The position numbers and the translations under genes are program-made. DNA of 64,000 nucleotides from Mycobacteroides saopaulense. Its GTDB lineage: Bacteria > Actinomycetota > Actinomycetes > Mycobacteriales > Mycobacteriaceae. The first letter of the stretch is position 1. Each line of letters starts with the position of its first letter. The notes under the pieces were generated by a model, which saw nothing but the letters and a program-made list of their open reading frames with translations, was not told where the DNA came from and searched no databases. The stretch covers positions 1,984,001 to 2,048,000 of the forward strand of contig NZ_CP010271.1 in assembly GCF_001456355.1 (NCBI RefSeq), in the 5' to 3' direction. Of the stretch, positions 52,754 through 60,241 are shown in pieces.

Positions 52754-52771
52754 GGACAACAACGTTGTCCA

Positions 52772-52868
52772 TTCTCATCCGATCTGGGGCATGAGGTGAG
52801 GTCTGACCTGCGGTGCCCCAGATTCGATGAGAATTTGATCCGGGCGTTTTCTCACTGAATCTGCGGTA
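52772..52868. repeat. Left-end cluster of three 20-base motifs
   Basis: Copies at 52772-52791 (+), 52814-52833 (-) and 52849-52868 (+) share TTCTCA, a variable three bases, then ATCTGGGGCA (the third diverges to ATCTGCGGTA). The same motif occurs twice at the right end of the proposed element, consistent with binding sites for a TnsB-type transposase. Confidence 0.75.
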
Positions 52869-53029
52869 AGTCGGCGCCATGCCCAGGGCGAAAACCGGTA
52901 CGCGATCCCGCGATTCATCAACTGTGGACACAAGCGTGATAGCCCGGTTTGCCTGGGTTCCAGGTTTCGCGGTCCGGTGGGGTAGGTCCGGGAACCGCAC
53001 AGGTGGGGCTGGGTGCGGGCGCAGTCTTG

Positions 53030-53222
53030 TTACTGACCGACCTTGATTGTTCGGCCTTCGCTGATGGCTACTGCCAGGACTTTGGCTTGGGTTTCATCGA
53101 TTCCCTCGCATTTGAGGGCGGCTTCGATTTCTGTGACTGGCCGGTGTGCGTATTTGCGGGCCAGCTTTGTCGAGCTTTCTTTGAACCTCGCGGTCGATCT
53201 CGCGTTGAAACTTTGGGTTCAT
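53030..53222 (-). pseudogene. Frameshifted small gene inside the element
   Basis: From ATG 53222 (AGGA upstream, TATAAA further up) the frame reads MNPKFQREIDREVQRKLDK. It then continues only after a one-base shift at an AAAG run near 53164-53168 as LARKYAHRPVTEIEAALK and onward to a TAA at 53030. The two halves join into a natural 60-odd residue helical protein. An extra A explains it. It may be a true pseudogene or a sequencing error. Family not recognised. The flanks 52869-53029 and 53223-53452 hold no other convincing gene. Confidence 0.5.
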
Positions 53223-53452
53223 CTTGAATCCTATTGCGTTCCTTACTTTTATAGACATGTCTCATCCGAATGCGACACGGATCGTCGGGCGTGTCGGTCT
53301 TATGGGAGCGGCGGGAGCGATTAAGTGGGCTCCTCTGACCGAGCACCATGGCGTCTTGTTCTCTTGCCTTCTCAGTATGGAACGTATGTGCGAACAATGG
53401 CCGACGTGACGCGCCGGTCATGTGGTTGGCGCTTGGTGTAACGGGCCTTTGT

Positions 53453-53471
53453 TCTCAGCGAAGTCTCAGCG
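53453..53471 (+). promoter_or_regulatory. Response-regulator-type direct repeat, site 1
   Basis: TCTCAGCG-AAG-TCTCAGCG: identical eight-base halves at 11-base pitch, the spacing used by OmpR-family dimers. It lies 21 bases before the ATG of the anchored acidic protein. Matching repeats occur at 56430 and 56466. Confidence 0.65.
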
Positions 53472-53492
53472 CCTGATGGGCATTGTCGGGGC

Positions 53493-53954
53493 ATGTCGAA
53501 CATTGATGACACGAATGAGTCCCCTGAACCACCCGAGGATGCGAATGTTGAGGGCGCTGAACTGAGTCCGAATGCTGGCCGGGTACCGGAAAGAGCCAGG
53601 TGGGCTCTGTTTACCCGGGCGGCGGCCATTGCTGGTGCAGCAGCTGCTGTGGTGGCGGTGCTAGGTCTGACGTTCGGTGCCGGTGTGTGGGCTGGGAGTG
53701 AGTTTGGTGATGAGTATGGCCGAGACGGTCGCGGACATAGCGAGTCTCGATCGCATGGGTATGACGCCGACGATGATGACGAGATCGATGAGCGTGGAGC
53801 AGGTCGAGAGGCCGCCGACGGCGGACGTGCCGGCGATGATGAGGGCAAGTCAAGCGATGGTCAGCGGGTACGTCCGGGTACTGAACGTACTCAGGCGCCC
53901 GCCCCGTCCTCGGCTGCGCCTGTCCCTGCGCCGACGGCCTCCGGGCGGTCGTAG
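53493..53954 (+). CDS. Single-pass membrane protein with acidic extracytoplasmic domain
   Basis: A 153-aa protein. A 40-residue cytoplasmic segment leads into one helix (AAAIAGAAAAVVAVLGLTFGAGV). The exterior tail is charged, mainly acidic (HGYDADDDDEIDERGAG), and ends in Pro/Ala/Ser repeats. It precedes the sensor kinase in the same direction by 74 bases and has a direct-repeat box at its promoter. It may be an accessory sensor or a target of the system. Family not recognised. Confidence 0.7.
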   Translation: MSNIDDTNESPEPPEDANVEGAELSPNAGRVPERARWALFTRAAAIAGAAAAVVAVLGLTFGAGVWAGSEFGDEYGRDGRGHSESRSHGYDADDDDEIDERGAGREAADGGRAGDDEGKSSDGQRVRPGTERTQAPAPSSAAPVPAPTASGRS

Positions 53955-54028
53955 GACTGCAATGATTATGGGATGTCGTTGCCATCCGTGAGGCGGTACC
54001 CAATGGCTGTGATGCGTGGGTGGAGCCG

Positions 54029-55441
54029 ATGGTGAAGGGCCGCGTACGCATTGGCGCGTTGGTCTCCCGTTTGCGGCGCTGGTGTGGGGGGATCGCGACT
54101 CGCTCGGCGCTGGTGGCCGCCGTTGTGGTGCTGGCCAGCTTGGTAGTTGTGGGCTCGGCATCGGTGGTGCTGCTGTATCGGTCGATGTGTGCCGATGTTG
54201 ATGACGCGGCTAATTCGCGCGCGTTGGCTGTGGCCGCGCGGCTCAAGAAGGAACCTCCTGACGAACTGGAGTCGGTGCTGTTGGCCACCGATCAGCGGAT
54301 CGTGGCTGTCCAAGTCATCGATGCCAGAGGCCGGATCGTGCGACATTCGGACTCGGCGCCCAACGGGCCGCTAATGCCGTTGCGCGGCAATAACTTCCGA
54401 AATTCCCAGGTCGGTGTTTCTGCCACTGCCGATGATGATATTCGTGTGGCTGCGCTGACTGCGGATGGCCGCAAAGGCCGGTACACGGTGTTGGTGGGCG
54501 GCGGTATTGAACCGATCGAGTCGATGACCTCGACGGTCGCCACCATGCTGACGATCACCGCACCTGTTGTGGCCGTCGTGGCCGCAGGGGTGACGTATCT
54601 GCTGGTGCGGCGCTCACTGCGCTCGGTCGATGCGATCCGTTCCCGCGTTTCGGAGATCAGCGCCTCCGATCTGAGTGAGCGGGTGCCCGTGCCAGATCGC
54701 GCCGATGAGATTTCGGCGCTGGCGGCCACGATGAACAAGATGCTCGAACGGATTGAAGCCGGGCACACCGCCCAGCGCCGGTTCGTCGGGGATGCCTCCC
54801 ATGAGCTCAGAAGCCCACTGGCAACAGTTATTTCGGCCTTAGAGATCGCTCAAAGCCATCCCGAGGTGTTCGACAAGACTCTCGTGCAGACGGCCTTGCT
54901 GCCCGAAGCTCACCGAATGCAATCCCTGGTCGAAGATCTGCTGCTGCTTGCCAGAGCCGATGAGCACGGGCTGCCGATGCGGCGCACCGAGATCGATCTC
55001 GATGATCTGGCCAGCACCGAAGTCGCGCGGCTTAAACGAGAAACGTCGCTGCAGGTTTCCGGGAATCTGGCGGCGGTCAAAGTCACCGGAGACGCGCTAG
55101 GGCTGGCACGGGTACTGCGTAATCTGGCTGACAACGCGGCCCGGCACGCCCGCACTACTGTGTCCATCGCGGTCAGTGCCGACGCTGACAGCACATGTCT
55201 GCAGGTCTGTGATGACGGTCCGGGAATCCCTGTCACCGAGCGTGGGCGTGTGTTTGAACGGTTTGTGCGCCTGGATGCCGACCGTTCCCGGCACGGCGGC
55301 GGCAGCGGTCTGGGTCTGGCCATTGTGGCCGAAATCGTTGCCGCACATAAGGGCACGGTAGATATCAGCGACCGTACAGGCGGTGGGACGGTGATGACCG
55401 TCCGGCTGCCGCTGGTCAACTCGGCCGACGCAGGCCGCTAA
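54029..55441 (+). CDS. Sensor histidine kinase
   Basis: A 470-aa kinase. Two helices (about 25-50 and 165-190) flank an extracytoplasmic sensor region of about 110 residues. A HAMP domain follows, then the H-box FVGDASHELRSPLATV with His near 258. The ATPase has NLADNAARHA (N box), DDGPGIP (G1) and GGGSGLGLAIV (G2). ATG at 54029 follows GGAG. The cognate regulator is encoded convergently, 29 bases beyond the stop, an unusual arrangement. Confidence 0.93.
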   Translation: MVKGRVRIGALVSRLRRWCGGIATRSALVAAVVVLASLVVVGSASVVLLYRSMCADVDDAANSRALAVAARLKKEPPDELESVLLATDQRIVAVQVIDARGRIVRHSDSAPNGPLMPLRGNNFRNSQVGVSATADDDIRVAALTADGRKGRYTVLVGGGIEPIESMTSTVATMLTITAPVVAVVAAGVTYLLVRRSLRSVDAIRSRVSEISASDLSERVPVPDRADEISALAATMNKMLERIEAGHTAQRRFVGDASHELRSPLATVISALEIAQSHPEVFDKTLVQTALLPEAHRMQSLVEDLLLLARADEHGLPMRRTEIDLDDLASTEVARLKRETSLQVSGNLAAVKVTGDALGLARVLRNLADNAARHARTTVSIAVSADADSTCLQVCDDGPGIPVTERGRVFERFVRLDADRSRHGGGSGLGLAIVAEIVAAHKGTVDISDRTGGGTVMTVRLPLVNSADAGR

Positions 55442-55470
55442 CGCGTGCGGGGCGAACGCTGCGGACGTGG

Positions 55471-56148
55471 TCAGCCGTCGGAAGCGAACTCGCCCGATTC
55501 AAGCCGGTAGCCCACGCCGCGGACCGTGATAATCAGGTGTGCGCCGATTTTGCGGCGAAGATAGCCGACGTAGACTTCGACGACGTTGTCGGGGCCGTCA
55601 TAGTGGTTATCCCAAACATTCTGCAGGATATCGGTTTTGGTGACTGCCGCGTCTTTGTTACGTAACAGGTATTCGAGCAGACCGTATTCGCGCGGTGTCA
55701 ACGACACCGGGCTGCCGGCGCGTTCGACGACCCTGCGGGTGGGATCTAGTGAGATCTCGCCGGCGGTGAGCACGACGGGACGTTTGGGTGCGCCCCGGCG
55801 TATCAAGGCGCGCAGGCGTGCGGTAAGCACCATGAACGAAAACGGTTTGGTCAGATAGTCATCGGCGCCCAAATCGAAGGCATCGGTCTGGTCGTAGTCG
55901 CCGTCTTTGGCGGTCAGCATCAACACCGGGGTCCACACGTGCGCGGCCCGCATTCTGCGCAGCACCTCATAGCCGCTGAGCCCGGGCAACATGATGTCCA
56001 GGACGATCACGTCGAAGGATTCGTTGGTGGCCTGCCACAGTCCGTCGATCCCGTCGCCGACGGTAACCACAACAAATCCTTCGGCCCGCAGACCGGCTGT
56101 CACCGTGTCGGCAAGCAGCGGTTCGTCCTCAACGAGCAGAACCCGCAC
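55471..56148 (-). CDS. OmpR/PhoB-family response regulator
   Basis: A 225-aa regulator. The receiver has acidic pocket VEDEP, phospho-Asp D51 in VIVLDIMLPG, Thr in MLTAKD and Lys in YLTKPF. The winged-helix output (about 125-220) includes SLTPREYGLLEYLL and VEVYVGYLRRKI. It is downstream of a small secreted peptide gene on the same strand and converges with the kinase gene. Direct repeats at three local promoters are its likely sites. Confidence 0.95.
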   Translation of the reverse strand: MRVLLVEDEPLLADTVTAGLRAEGFVVVTVGDGIDGLWQATNESFDVIVLDIMLPGLSGYEVLRRMRAAHVWTPVLMLTAKDGDYDQTDAFDLGADDYLTKPFSFMVLTARLRALIRRGAPKRPVVLTAGEISLDPTRRVVERAGSPVSLTPREYGLLEYLLRNKDAAVTKTDILQNVWDNHYDGPDNVVEVYVGYLRRKIGAHLIITVRGVGYRLESGEFASDG

Positions 56149-56186
56149 CGTGCGCCCTTCCGTGTAGCTTTGATCGCTGTCCAGTC

Positions 56187-56351
56187 TTACAGCCCTGGAT
56201 GCGCGGCACCCAATACTGGTGCCGGTTCACTGACCGAGACCGCGGCACGTTCGTGTGCGCGCTCTTGTGCCTCGGCCACCGTGGCCGAGGCACCGAACAA
56301 CATCAAAGCACCGATGATCAGAATCGCTGTCTCGCGGCGGGCAGTGGTCAT
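56187..56351 (-). CDS. Small secreted peptide, first gene of the response-regulator operon
   Basis: A 54-aa product: MTTARRETAILIIGALMLFG is a signal sequence, ending near VAEA-QERA. The mature part is about 30 residues, Ala/Glu/His/Pro-containing. GAAAGGCC lies before the ATG. It is 38 bases upstream of the response-regulator start and has a direct-repeat box about 80 bases upstream. It may be a signal or feedback peptide for the kinase; that is a guess. Confidence 0.6.
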   Translation of the reverse strand: MTTARRETAILIIGALMLFGASATVAEAQERAHERAAVSVSEPAPVLGAAHPGL

Positions 56352-56429
56352 AATCGGGCCTTTCTGCGTATCTGCTGGCCTCCGGGCGCCGATCGCCCGG
56401 GGGAATGCCATATCAGGTTGACATCGCAG

Positions 56430-56448
56430 CGCTGTGAGAACGCTGAGC
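56430..56448 (-). promoter_or_regulatory. Response-regulator-type direct repeat, site 2
   Basis: Minus strand GCTCAGCG-TTC-TCACAGCG, pitch 11 bases, facing the secreted-peptide/response-regulator operon. It differs from site 1 by one base in each half. Autoregulation of the response regulator would follow. Confidence 0.6.
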
Positions 56449-56465
56449 GCCGACACCGCCCCGGT

Positions 56466-56484
56466 TCTCAGCGAATCCTCAGTC
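56466..56484 (+). promoter_or_regulatory. Response-regulator-type direct repeat, site 3
   Basis: TCTCAGCG-AAT-CCTCAGTC, pitch 11 bases, facing the COG4705 membrane gene that starts 57 bases on. With site 2 it fills the 189-base divergent promoter region 56352-56540. Confidence 0.6.
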
Positions 56485-56540
56485 CCGCGCCACTAAGGTG
56501 CGGCCGAGATCGCTGACACCTACAACAGATTTGGCAGGTC

Positions 56541-57350
56541 ATGGCCGTATCGAATTACAAACTTCCCCAAGTCACAGCCCTGTTCTGGGTTTTGAAGATC
56601 GCCGCAACCACACTCGGGGAAACCGGCGGGGATCTGATCGCCCAAACCTTGGACCTGGGCTACGCCGCCGCCTCAGTCCTGTTCATCGCGATCTTCGTGG
56701 TGAGTCTTCTTGCACAGCTGCGTGCCCGCCAGTTCCATCCGGCCTTGTACTGGACGGTGATCGCCGCGACCAGCACCGCCGGCACCACCATGTCCGATCT
56801 GATCAACCGCGGCCCCGGCTCAGACACCGACACCGCCGACGGCCTGGGCTACGGAGCCGGCGCAGTCCTTCTGATCACCGGACTCGTTGTCGTGTTTGCG
56901 ATCTGGAAACTGACCCGGGAAACTTTCGATGTCGCCAACATCACCACCTTGCGCGGTGAAGTCCTCTACTGGGCGGCGATCCTGCTATCCAATACCCTGG
57001 GCACCTCCCTGGGCGACTACCTCGCCGACAGCTCCGGGATGGGCTACTGGGGCAGCGCAGCCCTAATCGCCGCCGTGATGGCCACCATCTTGGCCGCTCA
57101 CTATCTCACCAACATCTCCGGAGTCCTGCTCTTTTGGGCTGCATTCATCCTGACCCGCCCCCTGGGGGCCACCGTGGGCGACTTGCTGTCCAAACCACTG
57201 GACAAGGGAGGGCTAGCGCTGGGGACCTGGGGCACCTCGGCAGCACTATTGGCGATCCTCGTCATCGGTATCGCCTTCGGATACCGCAAGACCCGCACCA
57301 CCACCACGGACAATCCCGACCCAGACCTCCACGAGCTGGCCCGCGACTAG
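56541..57350 (+). CDS. COG4705-type repeat membrane protein
   Basis: A 269-aa, eight-helix protein built from four copies of a two-helix unit. Each unit carries a T-x-G-x-x-x-(G/S)D motif: AATTLGETGGD, TAGTTMSD, NTLGTSLGD and LGATVGD. Conserved Asp residues in membrane segments suggest ion movement. Members are often encoded near two-component systems. Its promoter carries site 3, so it is a likely target of the neighbouring system. Confidence 0.75.
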   Translation: MAVSNYKLPQVTALFWVLKIAATTLGETGGDLIAQTLDLGYAAASVLFIAIFVVSLLAQLRARQFHPALYWTVIAATSTAGTTMSDLINRGPGSDTDTADGLGYGAGAVLLITGLVVVFAIWKLTRETFDVANITTLRGEVLYWAAILLSNTLGTSLGDYLADSSGMGYWGSAALIAAVMATILAAHYLTNISGVLLFWAAFILTRPLGATVGDLLSKPLDKGGLALGTWGTSAALLAILVIGIAFGYRKTRTTTTDNPDPDLHELARD

Positions 57351-57377
57351 CCCAAACGCGTTGAGCGCCAGTCAACG

Positions 57378-57542
57378 TCACAGCAGATATGCCTCGGCCA
57401 TCAGGCCGATGGCGGTGACAATCGCGGTCGCCGCACCGCAGAACAGCACGGATTTGGCGACCATCCAATTATCGTGCTCGATGGTTGGCGTTTCGGGGCG
57501 AAGATCGGCCGAGGTGAATCTGCTGGCATCGGGATTGTGCAT
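57378..57542 (-). CDS. Small single-helix membrane protein
   Basis: About 54 aa from ATG 57542 (GTGAGG upstream). A polar start (MHNPDASRFTSADLRPETP) is followed by one C-terminal helix (SVLFCGAATAIVTAIGLMAEA). The frame is open to 57620. Unknown function; it converges with the COG4705 gene. Coding status is moderate. Confidence 0.45.
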   Translation of the reverse strand: MHNPDASRFTSADLRPETPTIEHDNWMVAKSVLFCGAATAIVTAIGLMAEAYLL

Positions 57543-57654
57543 GATCCTCACCATGCCGAGCAGACCCTTAAGTTTGGCTGAGAGCCCGAACCCTGAACTG
57601 ACGAATCGCCAGCCAGTCATAGGATTCGGCCCGCGTAAACGCGGTGTTGATGGG

Positions 57655-57927
57655 TCAGATCGCCGTGGAATGAACGTCTTTCATCGTCCGGAACCTGGTG
57701 TTCTGACGGCACTGCCCGCGGTCCTTGATCCCATCTGCCGTCGGTGACTGAATGGCTGCGGTGAGCCGCTGATTGTGCACCCACTGTTCGATCGGGGTGA
57801 TGTCGGTGTGGGCGTGGCCGGTGCGTTCGTTGATCTTCTGCAGAAGCAACTGAGGCCAGGCGATTCGGCGCCTGATGGGATGTTGTGCAATCTGCTGACG
57901 ATGGATGGCCAGTGTCTCATCTCTCAC
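57655..57927 (-). CDS. Small ORF coupled to the TnsA-like gene
   Basis: A 90-aa frame whose GTG overlaps the TnsA-like stop (GTGA). It is polar and basic (ETLAIHRQQIAQHPIRRR, and IEQWVHNQRLTAAIQS), with no family I recognise. In complete elements the transposase TnsB would start here; this does not look like one, so it may be an unrelated or decayed remnant. Confidence 0.4.
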   Translation of the reverse strand: MRDETLAIHRQQIAQHPIRRRIAWPQLLLQKINERTGHAHTDITPIEQWVHNQRLTAAIQSPTADGIKDRGQCRQNTRFRTMKDVHSTAI

Positions 57928-58664
57928 CTGCCTGTACTTGGACTAACGATCGCGTCATCGGTCAATGTTGTCGCCGCAAGGTCGACGCTCAATTTGCGAT
58001 GCCAGAGCAGGTGAAACAGGACAGGCAGCACCACCAGGGGAGTGCCCACCGCCAATACCCCGGCCATCAAGGGCCGAGCCCGACCGAACGCCGACATCAG
58101 ATCATCGGCCAAACCAGGCCGAAACACGCGTGGATGCCGATATCCAGACAGCCACCGAAGATTGGCCCGCAGCACCGGATCAAGCACCCCGACCCGGCGG
58201 TAATCCCAGCCAACTGCCGCGCACTCAGCAGCCGAACGGTCAAATTTCTCCTGATCCGCTGCCTCGATCCGGCCATCATCGCGAACATCGAGCACGAGCG
58301 CTGAACCATCCCGGCGCCGCACGAAATAGTCCGGAGCATGACTTACACCATCTGCCCAACGGAACCAAAATGATTGTGATACAACGCCAATCACGTCCGG
58401 GTCAGCATCCAGCGCCATCAGCTGATCACGTTCCAGCCACGACTCATGGCCAACATGAATACCGGTACGGGAAAACCACCAAAAACCCGGGAAATTGCGT
58501 TGACCACGGTACGAAGGAAAATTCCGCACCGGTAAACAGTCAAGCTCAAACGGGAACGTCGCGCACCGGGCCAGCGGGAGGCACAAGCTGCCATCACGCC
58601 TGTCGAACTCCAGTTCAACGACACCCGCACTAACAGGCCAAGCCGACACCACCGACGTCAGCAC
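57924..58664 (-). CDS. TnsA-like heteromeric transposase endonuclease subunit
   Basis: A 246-aa protein of the actinobacterial TnsA-like family. RNFPSYRGQRNFPGFWWFSR, HVGHESWLERDQLMALDADP, SHAPDYFVRRRDGSALVLDV and the C-terminal PLMAGVLAVGTPLVVLPVLF are family blocks. Nuclease residues would be E74 or E78, D112, and the position of TnsA's catalytic lysine, here Arg (R128). TnsA cuts the 5' ends of Tn7-like elements. The gene starts 20 bases inside the right-end repeats, as tnsA does in Tn7. The Lys-to-Arg change hints at reduced activity. Confidence 0.85.
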   Translation of the reverse strand: MLTSVVSAWPVSAGVVELEFDRRDGSLCLPLARCATFPFELDCLPVRNFPSYRGQRNFPGFWWFSRTGIHVGHESWLERDQLMALDADPDVIGVVSQSFWFRWADGVSHAPDYFVRRRDGSALVLDVRDDGRIEAADQEKFDRSAAECAAVGWDYRRVGVLDPVLRANLRWLSGYRHPRVFRPGLADDLMSAFGRARPLMAGVLAVGTPLVVLPVLFHLLWHRKLSVDLAATTLTDDAIVSPSTGR

Positions 58665-58683
58665 ATCTAAAGGTTAAGCACCG

Positions 58684-58723
58684 TGCCCCAGATTCAATGA
58701 GAATGCCCCAACATCCGTGAGAA
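58684..58723 (-). repeat. Right-end tandem pair of 20-base motifs
   Basis: Two abutting copies (58684-58703 and 58704-58723), both oriented outward, share TGCCCCA and TGAGAA with the left-end copies. Six bases later the right tip CGGACA ends at 58729. TTCTCA-N3-ATCTGGGGCA is the consensus on the minus strand. Confidence 0.75.
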
Positions 58724-58729
58724 CGGACA

Positions 58730-59441
58730 TCCATCGCTGATGTATATGAAAAAGGTTGTGGGGCTGGCTGATTCATGATCATTACGTCACTGTGACGCAA
58801 TGGGCGTGCCTAAAGGGGTGGCGAAAGTGGTGGGGTAGCGCCGTTCATGGCGGTTTATGCGATTGTGCAGCTTCGGTTTGCGGGCGGCCTGCGCGTTCTG
58901 TGGGGTGCCCAGCGGTTAGAGGTGGAGCGTTGCCTGTGAGTGTTGAGTTGATGCCTGTTCTGATGATCCCTGTGCGGTCTAAATCGGATGGTTATCAATC
59001 GATTTCGGGCGACCGTCGAGGTGGGTCGGACGGCGCTGCATTACTCGTCGACCGACGGGGCCGGACAACGTTCCGATATGGACATATCGTCACAGTGACG
59101 TTTTTAGGCACGGGGGCTGGGCGTTGGAAGGGGTGCTCAATCTGCGAAATATGCTGTGGTCGAGTGATTTTGGCCGACGAAGCCGAAAGATCGGTCTCGC
59201 AAGGGGCGGTCGCGGCTATCGTCTGTGAGCCCAGGCGATCGGCGCGAAGGAACGTGTGGCGATAGCGTGGCTGATCTACCGGGGATGTGCGGACGCCAGG
59301 TGGGTGGTGGCCGGGTCGTCACAACGAAAAGTGCAGATAGGCGGCCTGTCGATGTGTGCTTGGCATATATCTAACGCCGATAAGACACATTATGTCAGAT
59401 AGAAGTCTGCTTATTGCGGCACATGTAGGATCTGCCCCTGC
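58730..59441. other. 712-base region without a convincing gene, with two CGTCAC-N-GTGACG palindromes
   Basis: The plus-strand frame 58756-59265 is open but Trp/Cys/Arg-rich and lacks protein character. Two 13-base palindromes stand out: CGTCACTGTGACG at 58785-58797 (extending to 58781-58801 with one mismatched pair) and CGTCACAGTGACG at 59088-59100. They look like binding sites for one dimeric protein. Base composition is lower in GC than the core genome. Confidence 0.45.
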
Positions 59442-60140
59442 TGTCCGTTCTCAATGGATATGGCAGTAATCTCAGCCATCATGGCAGTATCCGGAATCGG
59501 GGTGTTTTCTCTGAGATCTTGTCAGCACGAGGGCTGCTGATGACTCGGTGATGTCCTTAACTGCGATGTACACATCCGGAACGGTCTTGCCGCCCCACAT
59601 ACGCCACACCGCTACGCTGATTTGCCGGACACCCGGCATGTGAGCGTACGCGGCGTATGTTTCGAACTGTTGGATAGCGCCGCTAAGCGTGATGCGCGCA
59701 TCTCGTAAGACGCGTAGCCACCTTCTAGTGCGGCTTTGGAGGTACACCGGCCGACCCGCCCACTCTGTCAGAAACGTGCTAGTTGGCGCAATATACCAAC
59801 ATTGGCTAGCTAGGAGGCCACAGCTTCGAACCCAGCTACGCCACCAACCGGACGCGTGAACAGCGCAATACCTACTGCGGCCCAACCTTAGTAAACAGGC
59901 GGGGAATGCCGCGAGTTCGGCTACGCAAACGAGTTGATGCGCCGCAGTGCGACTCTCAACTTAAGCACGTTGCGCTGGTCCCCTAAGGCTATCCGCGTCA
60001 TCGCAGGACAAGAAGGCGTGCGCGTGCCTCCGTAGTTCATTCGGAACTGTCATCTTTACTGAGAAAGATATCCCAGGGATTGTCTCACAATTGATGTCAT
60101 CTTCCCAGATCGCTACTGACACAATCAGTTAGAACGGACA
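59442..60140. mobile_element. 699-bp mini-element with 5-bp target duplication
   Basis: The left tip reads TGTCCGTTCTCA and the right tip TTAGAACGGACA: ten perfect inverted bases, then further partial matches. CCTGC lies immediately outside each end (59437-59441 and 60141-60145). Left-end ATGGCAGTA units (two) resemble TGTCAGTAGC at the right. The tip is identical to the right tip of the larger element. The only inside frame of size (59472-59885, minus) is not a recognisable protein. It looks like a non-autonomous element of the same transposase family. Confidence 0.72.
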
Positions 60141-60150
60141 CCTGCTGTCC

Positions 60151-60241
60151 TTTCCGGTTTTAGTTGGCCAGTTTCCGGATAAACATGGCCATTTACGGAT
60201 GTGGTGTGGTTTCCGCGTATTGATGGCCAACCAGCTTCCGG
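60151..60241. repeat. Cluster of TGGCCA-TTCCGGAT repeats, possible IS21-like end
   Basis: Three related units occur in 80 bases: TTGGCCAGTTTCCGGATAAA at 60164, ATGGCCATTTACGGAT at 60185, and ATGGCCAACCAGCTTCCGG at 60223. Such arrays of partial repeats occur at ends of IS21-type elements. No transposase gene remains here; it lies between the mini-element and the helicase stop. Confidence 0.35.

Follow-up and report, generated by a model that had tools for sequence, protein, structure and literature searches.

Transposons of the NF033179 group, such as Tn7706 of Rhodococcus, are described as carrying tnsA, tnsB, tniB/tnsC, tniQ and terminal inverted repeats (PMC12915292), while in the Tn5053/Tn402 elements a single TniQ is reported to aim insertion at site-specific recombination sites (PMC11406308). 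Elements resembling both were found in a 64,000-nucleotide stretch of Mycobacteroides saopaulense DNA (contig NZ_CP010271.1, positions 1,984,001 to 2,048,000; hereafter the window), around dif, the XerC/XerD site. This locus is very probably a terminus landmark, consisting of dif and a neighbouring 13-bp palindrome, that has been hit repeatedly by two actinobacterial Tn7-like subfamilies, each with its own target: the palindrome for the elements that we call type I, and dif for type II. Sequence comparison supports this target rule well for both subfamilies and brings out how the elements are built, the duplications and motifs at their targets, and how they are spaced and oriented.

Both subfamilies appear to work most like the Tn5053 'res-site hunters', with other targets. 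Tn5053/Tn402 elements seek the resolvase sites of Tn3-family elements, whereas the candidate targets here are dif, served by tyrosine recombinases, and the palindrome (res sites were not searched for). Tn5053 is not known to have a TnsA, which is present here. In Tn7, tnsA lies beside the right end, the right end points towards the attachment site and the repeats are asymmetric; our elements share all three features, as well as the 5-bp duplication given for Tn7 in a review legend. Unlike Tn7, they do not appear to target glmS, and one landmark serves both chromosome and plasmids. No TnsD or TnsE was recognised by eye among the open reading frames (ORFs) of two intact relatives, no model search for either having been made. 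Tn7706, which we compared by its description only, differs in that no attachment rule was seen in that description (PMC12915292), whereas two landmarks were found here. Tn6022-like elements also link Tn7-like targeting to tyrosine recombinases, since their TnsF is described as having an inactivated tyrosine recombinase domain, but their target is comM (PMC10293859). The Legionella element LME-1, an IMEX, likewise has dif as its place of integration, but is described as using site-specific recombination via a dif mimic, not transposition beside dif (PMC9765430). Among the papers listed from the open-licence literature, judged mostly by title, we found no published description of Tn7-like elements aiming at dif or the palindrome. 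The whole word dif is absent from Faure et al. 2023, where Xer occurs in a reference only, and titles listed for the palindrome sequence seemed to concern mostly the oestrogen receptor or unrelated subjects, none of those listed being on this targeting.

Probable targets of the type I and type II elements

The dif site of the window is in accord with the dif sequence proposed for Frankia that PMC3025954 cites. Its exact core occurs in 89 of 98 genomes of the genus, with no control match, and the GC skew is mostly positive before 56 kb and near zero or negative across much of the next 28 kb. The two sides of dif are named after its XerC and XerD arms. On the XerC-arm side, 226-344 bp from dif and typically at about 280 bp, the 13-bp palindrome CGTCACWGTGACG (CGTCACNGTGACG) is present in 25 of 30 mycobacterial dif loci (L093-L122; genomes, contigs and loci are given by our G, C and L numbers), a recurrence that marks it as a host feature. 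Two of the remaining five loci have it with one mismatch and three have none, one of these being cut by a contig end. A second copy is often present. The W form of the palindrome is rare (38 sites in 14 genomes versus five for the reversed pattern, with zero to six exact sites per genome); it occurs in 12 of the 14 genomes and at dif in 11. Possibly the palindrome is an Xer-accessory or segregation site so far undescribed. It was also seen towards the end of five chromosome records, a few kb short of it and some 2 kb from parS-like sites, as well as on second contigs. Some genomes carry additional dif-like sites that differ in their core bases and lie on contigs other than that of dif (G040:C59, G178:C7, G054:C2, G169:C79, G043:C220/C221, G095:C3, G139:C8), some of which are probably plasmid Xer sites.

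A TnsA search of 148 genomes of the genus gave matches in 47. Intact type I relatives with tnsA-tnsB-tnsC between the same ends, which the initial annotation of the window had proposed to look for, were found; their TnsA is 60-72% identical to that of the window, and the gene order is tnsA-tnsB-tnsC-tniQ followed by cargo (judged by eye from translations, mercury-resistance-like genes in L040 and an oxidoreductase in L044). In an intact relative the Pfam models Mu-transpos_C (35 bits) and TniB (60.5 bits) scored above their cut-offs, with rve at 24.4 and TniQ at 18.3 bits, below cut-offs of 32.6 and 27. The TniQ has about 280 residues with CxxC...CxxH and stands in the expected place; TnsD is far longer. 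In a scan of 47 loci with fixed tip forms, the window included, 5-bp duplications flanked nine type I copies of 8.1-10.3 kb (CTTAG, CTTGC, GCCAC, GCACG, GTGGG, GCATG, CTGGT, GGATT, GCGCG) and one type II copy of 9,917 bp. A 2,991-bp type I copy in M. frederiksbergense (L175), presumably internally deleted, has an intact duplication (CGCAT), a tnsA match and a right end without palindrome. The exchanged flanks of two copies in G101 (CTATC/TCTCG) indicate that recombination between copies happens.

The palindrome, with at most one mismatch, is correctly placed at the right end in 22 of 107 TnsA entries. The mycobacterial type I clade accounts for 20 of its 39 entries (16 exact, four with one mismatch), and the other 68 entries for two. 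Eleven entries with TnsA identical over the aligned part all have different surroundings, eight of them at palindromes. Related TnsA was also found in 99 records of a plasmid collection, with the best place at 60-80% identity in five. All four examined of these five, from M. aubagnense, M. intracellulare subsp. chimaera (two plasmids) and M. avium, carry the palindrome without mismatch, 54-90 bp beyond the right-end tip, while two further records at 49% identity have none (six of the 99 records examined in all). Searching 396 genomes blind for palindrome-N38-68-tip, we obtained 19 matches in 19 genomes and no control match, with about 0.12 expected; by eye 15 of them are right ends, and type I TnsA is in the locus in 10 of the 19. 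We considered dif itself as the type I target and rejected it, since several insertions at palindromes have no dif in the flank retrieved. If the exchange of flanks in G101 is undone in thought, one copy had dif about 212 bp away on one side and, on the other, the palindrome 61 bp from its right end, so the palindrome, not dif, is again the point faced. As a separate observation, G087 has beside the palindrome at dif a stretch of about 3.8 kb with type I-like ends (L125:11075-14843), in which hidden Markov models (HMMs) detected no tns gene; a full type II element lies on the other side of dif.

Type II elements occupy the XerD-arm side. In five genomes (G002, G059, G086, G087 and G113) tnsA starts about 300-360 bp beyond dif and reads away from it; four of these elements are alignable at the right end, and in the stretch of G086 inspected no TGTCC tip lies that far from dif. 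At this place the window carries a mini-element of 699 bp, with a right end that aligns with type II and a perfect 5-bp duplication CCTGC at 59437-59441 and 60141-60145, the same five bases as are duplicated in G059. A blind search of the 396 genomes for dif-N38-60-TGTCCNNTCTC gave 20 matches in 19 genomes, no control match and about 0.03 expected, with spacers of 41-53 bp (mean 47.2). G059 and G113 escaped this search, which accepts a single tip form and no mismatch in the dif core. All 20 matches show subterminal repeats by eye, and many are remnants, small elements or contig ends. We also inspected 49 occurrences of dif in loci L093-L142, where some genomes are represented twice, and saw no tip at the mirror position. 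Type II ends also stand at four of the dif-like sites on other contigs (G054:C2, G040:C59, G178:C7 and G169:C79); in G169, two distinct dif-like sites have an identical right end beside them.

Over both types, 74 TnsA matches were considered; 32 of them were left out because dif was on another contig or absent, and 42 share a contig with dif. Of these 42, 23 are within 15 kb of dif, all but one reading away from it. By identity to the TnsA of the window, the matches within 15 kb number 9 of 11 (at least 55%), 12 of 16 (37-55%) and 2 of 15 (below 37%). In L131 and L141 we also noted an ORF about 400-800 bp from dif, tyrosine recombinase-like by eye, lying between dif and a more distant Tn7-like element of the type II sister group.

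Several observations weigh against the target rule. The W-form palindrome is missing from two of the 14 genomes and is not at dif in a third. At the right ends of 16 of the 39 type I entries there is no palindrome, which means that other targets are used or that sites have decayed; two further entries are at contig edges and one is rearranged, and one of the two G101 copies likewise has no palindrome there. Among the 19 blind type I matches, three have the left end facing the palindrome and one (L280) is probably due to chance. Type I spacing is loose, at 40-68 bp within the gap searched and 164 bp in L146. For type II, only 4 of the 20 blind matches have a type II TnsA in the locus inspected (3 kb at most), the other ends being known by repeats alone, read by eye and in some cases cut by contig ends, and the sister group (four entries) lies 4-12 kb from dif without fixed spacing. 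The Pfam TniQ model matches the presumed selector only below its cut-off, and the same-contig filter is biased towards short distances in draft genomes.

Remnants of elements in the window

The initial annotation had described 52766-58729 as one unrecognised Tn7-like element whose cargo included a two-component system. Its Tn7-like character was confirmed, while its unity and cargo were not, and the position beside dif and the palindrome had been missed. The features are collected in Table 1.

Table 1. Coordinates of features in the window, with the observations on which they rest.
Feature	Position	Strand	Remarks
Orphan left end	52766..52868	+	tip TGTCCATTCTCA; three 20-bp repeats, 52772+, 52814-, 52849+
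Chromosomal block	53436..57585	.	colinear outside the element in G091; tblastx; families
ORF within chromosomal block	53493-53954		
Sensor kinase	54020-55441	+	
Response regulator	55471-56148	-	
Small peptide ORF	56187-56456	-	
DUF347 protein	56541-57350	+	
Small ORF	57378-57620	-	start uncertain
Truncated palindrome-homing (type I) Tn7-like element	57586..58729	-	TniQ tail, tnsA, right end
TniQ C-terminus remnant	57724..57915	-	tblastn E 3e-10; HMM E 5e-13; directly adjoins tnsA
tnsA	57924..58664	-	246 codons, open frame; alignment with relatives
Right end	58684..58729	-	two abutting repeats and tip TGTCCGTTCTCA
Palindrome CGTCACTGTGACG	58785..58797	.	type I target landmark, 55 bp from right-end tip
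Second palindrome CGTCACAGTGACG	59088..59100	.	about 290 bp from dif
dif (XerC/XerD site)	59374..59400	+	one exact core in genome
Dif-homing (type II) mini-element, 699 bp	59442..60140	+	44 bp from dif core, right end towards dif
Right end of further type II-layout element	60146..60229	+	repeats 60151, 60172, 60210; offsets 0, 21, 59
DEAD/ResIII helicase, 1058 aa	60284..63460	-	possible cargo of element ending at 60146

The 20-base repeat has no match with the N3 spacer first written for it, but with N4 it has five in the window at up to three mismatches (52772+, 52814-, 52849+, 58684- and 58704-). These are restricted to the two ends, as had been claimed (0.34 expected; none of 100 shuffles reaches five), and at up to two mismatches the motif occurs six times genome-wide, four of them in the window, the other two equalling the control count of two. 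Both tips are exact (at 52766 and, on the minus strand, at 58718-58729), and a third exact tip, previously overlooked, starts at 59442. The flanks AACGT (52766) and TCCAT (58729) were correctly reported not to match, and there is no 5-bp target duplication there. The +,-,+ layout of the orphan left end, with 42/35 bp spacing, is that of left ends in intact relatives. The right end is short by one 31-bp repeat unit, with 65 bp from tip to tnsA start versus 96 bp in the closest relatives. Asymmetric multi-repeat ends of the Tn7-like kind are present; the full Tn7-like gene set is not, the copy having lost its left end, tnsB, tnsC and most of tniQ.

The tnsA gene beside the right end is real, scoring 275 bits on the NCBIfam model NF033179 TnsA_like_Actin (cut-off 110). 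Its product has kept the residues that do not vary among eight relatives, D112, D126 and R128 among them, which we take to be catalytic from the nuclease family. Since NCBIfam names this TnsA and plasmid annotations name relatives, the element is not unrecognised. Its earlier reading as an old, rearranged copy was right. That no TnsB, TnsC or TniQ remains is true of the first two, whereas a TniQ tail persists directly beside tnsA. A TnsB search that matched 57 of the 148 genomes, weak matches included, found none in the genome of the window. The Pfam rve model also had no match there; because a relative's TnsB scores below the cut-off of that model, the TnsB search is the better test. Pfam TniQ gave no match in this genome, but none in controls either. 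Without a TnsB match in its own genome, mobilisation in trans by a resident element finds no support, and the type I copy, with no TnsB/TnsC and no paired left end, should be dead. Its left border was set by eye against G091: the sequence CTTAAGTTTGGCTGAGA..., uninterrupted outside the right end in G091, is split in the window at about 57586/58750, which delimits the truncated element at 57586-58729.

Directly beyond the mini-element, the right end at 60146 (TGTCCTTTCCGG, repeats TTTCCG..TGGCCA) starts at the same CCTGC. The helicase that may be its cargo resembles defence helicases weakly, and the window repeat scan found no left end for a helicase-bearing element. No tns gene was found in the type II copies of the window, which are remnants.

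Alternative explanations

It is unlikely that 52766-58729 was once a single Tn7-like element with two-component cargo, whose core genes and target duplication were later lost. In its favour, both ends point the right way and share one repeat family, and no other left end of that family lies between them in the window. The block between them, however, is chromosome. In G091 an intact 9,438-bp tnsA-B-C-tniQ element, flanked by a target-site duplication, stands at nearly the same place as the window copy, and 53436-57349 lies directly beyond its left end at 78-79% identity, with order and orientation to dif kept; beyond its right end come matches to 58746-58802, 59363-59441 and then 64606 onward. 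In view of this position outside an intact element we rejected the two-component system as cargo, and with it the earlier proposal that the cargo moved as a unit. G168 also has the DUF347 part (56183-57477) close to dif, though not the kinase and the regulator. A scan of the G091 stretch with the block (L091) at up to four mismatches gave one lone four-mismatch match and no end cluster, and the flanks of 52766 and 58729 differ. We also rejected an inversion alone as the origin of the left end at 52766, since in G091 the block is oriented to dif as it is in the window. A CsbD-gene block adjoins this left end; it lies 2.4 Mb from dif in G087, 19 kb in G219, and on a separate contig from dif in G168, G189 and G242. 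For 52874-53435 no DNA-level match was found in the other genomes compared. Most simply, if unproven, the left end at 52766 would be the remnant of a second insertion.

The association with dif itself has two other conceivable origins. The terminus region might be just a permissive hot spot, without sequence recognition, comparable to a TnsE-like preference of Tn7 for replication termination. Several other insertions do crowd the region, and Tn7 is said, in the title of an article by Peters and Craig (2000), to insert where chromosomal replication terminates. The 41-53 bp spacing, the single orientation at dif and the empty mirror side speak against such a preference, as does the marking of insertions on plasmids and far from dif by the same motifs, and we regard it as very improbable. 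Still less credible, to the point of being negligible, is one ancient insertion inherited vertically. Position and orientation are common to several genomes, as inheritance would predict, but target duplications (in the elements of 11 relatives) and distances differ, and the eleven insertions with TnsA identical over the aligned part have different surroundings. Moreover, the flank alignments with G091 and G168 end exactly at 59441, where the type II insert of the window starts, and plasmid copies exist.

Proposed targeting mechanism and its meaning

With dif and the palindrome as landmarks for two subfamilies, type I elements insert with a 5-bp duplication and with the right (tnsA) end usually towards the palindrome, mostly 40-100 bp away, wherever the palindrome occurs: at dif, elsewhere in the chromosome or on plasmids. 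Type II elements insert on the other side of dif, leaving 41-53 bp between their right end and the core; they do so on chromosomes and also beside dif-like sites of other contigs, of which some are probably plasmids. TniQ is the sole candidate selector recognised beside tnsABC. By analogy with Tn5053, as described in PMC11406308, the single compact TniQ of each element most likely recognises its landmark, either directly or via a host protein bound there, which may be XerC/XerD at dif and another host factor at the palindrome. TniQ would then load TnsC, and TnsC would set the distance and orientation for TnsA/TnsB. The chances seem evenly divided for a fuller proposal, in which one compact TniQ aims at one 13-bp palindrome common to mycobacterial replicons, near dif on chromosomes and also on plasmids, and so takes the place of the two pathways that Tn7 has for chromosome and plasmid; the palindrome would be an undescribed host segregation or Xer-accessory site, and the sister subfamily would aim at dif itself. 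Separately, in two Nocardia loci (L177 and L181) a TniQ-like N-terminus is joined to quite different C-terminal parts, which suggests other target selectors.

The rule set out here would provide an attachment site for a group of actinobacterial Tn7-like transposons, tie Tn7 targeting to the site of chromosome dimer resolution and bring to light a palindrome that is conserved next to dif. TniQ selectors this compact, if their targets are so short and defined, may also be useful for comparing how TniQ proteins read DNA.

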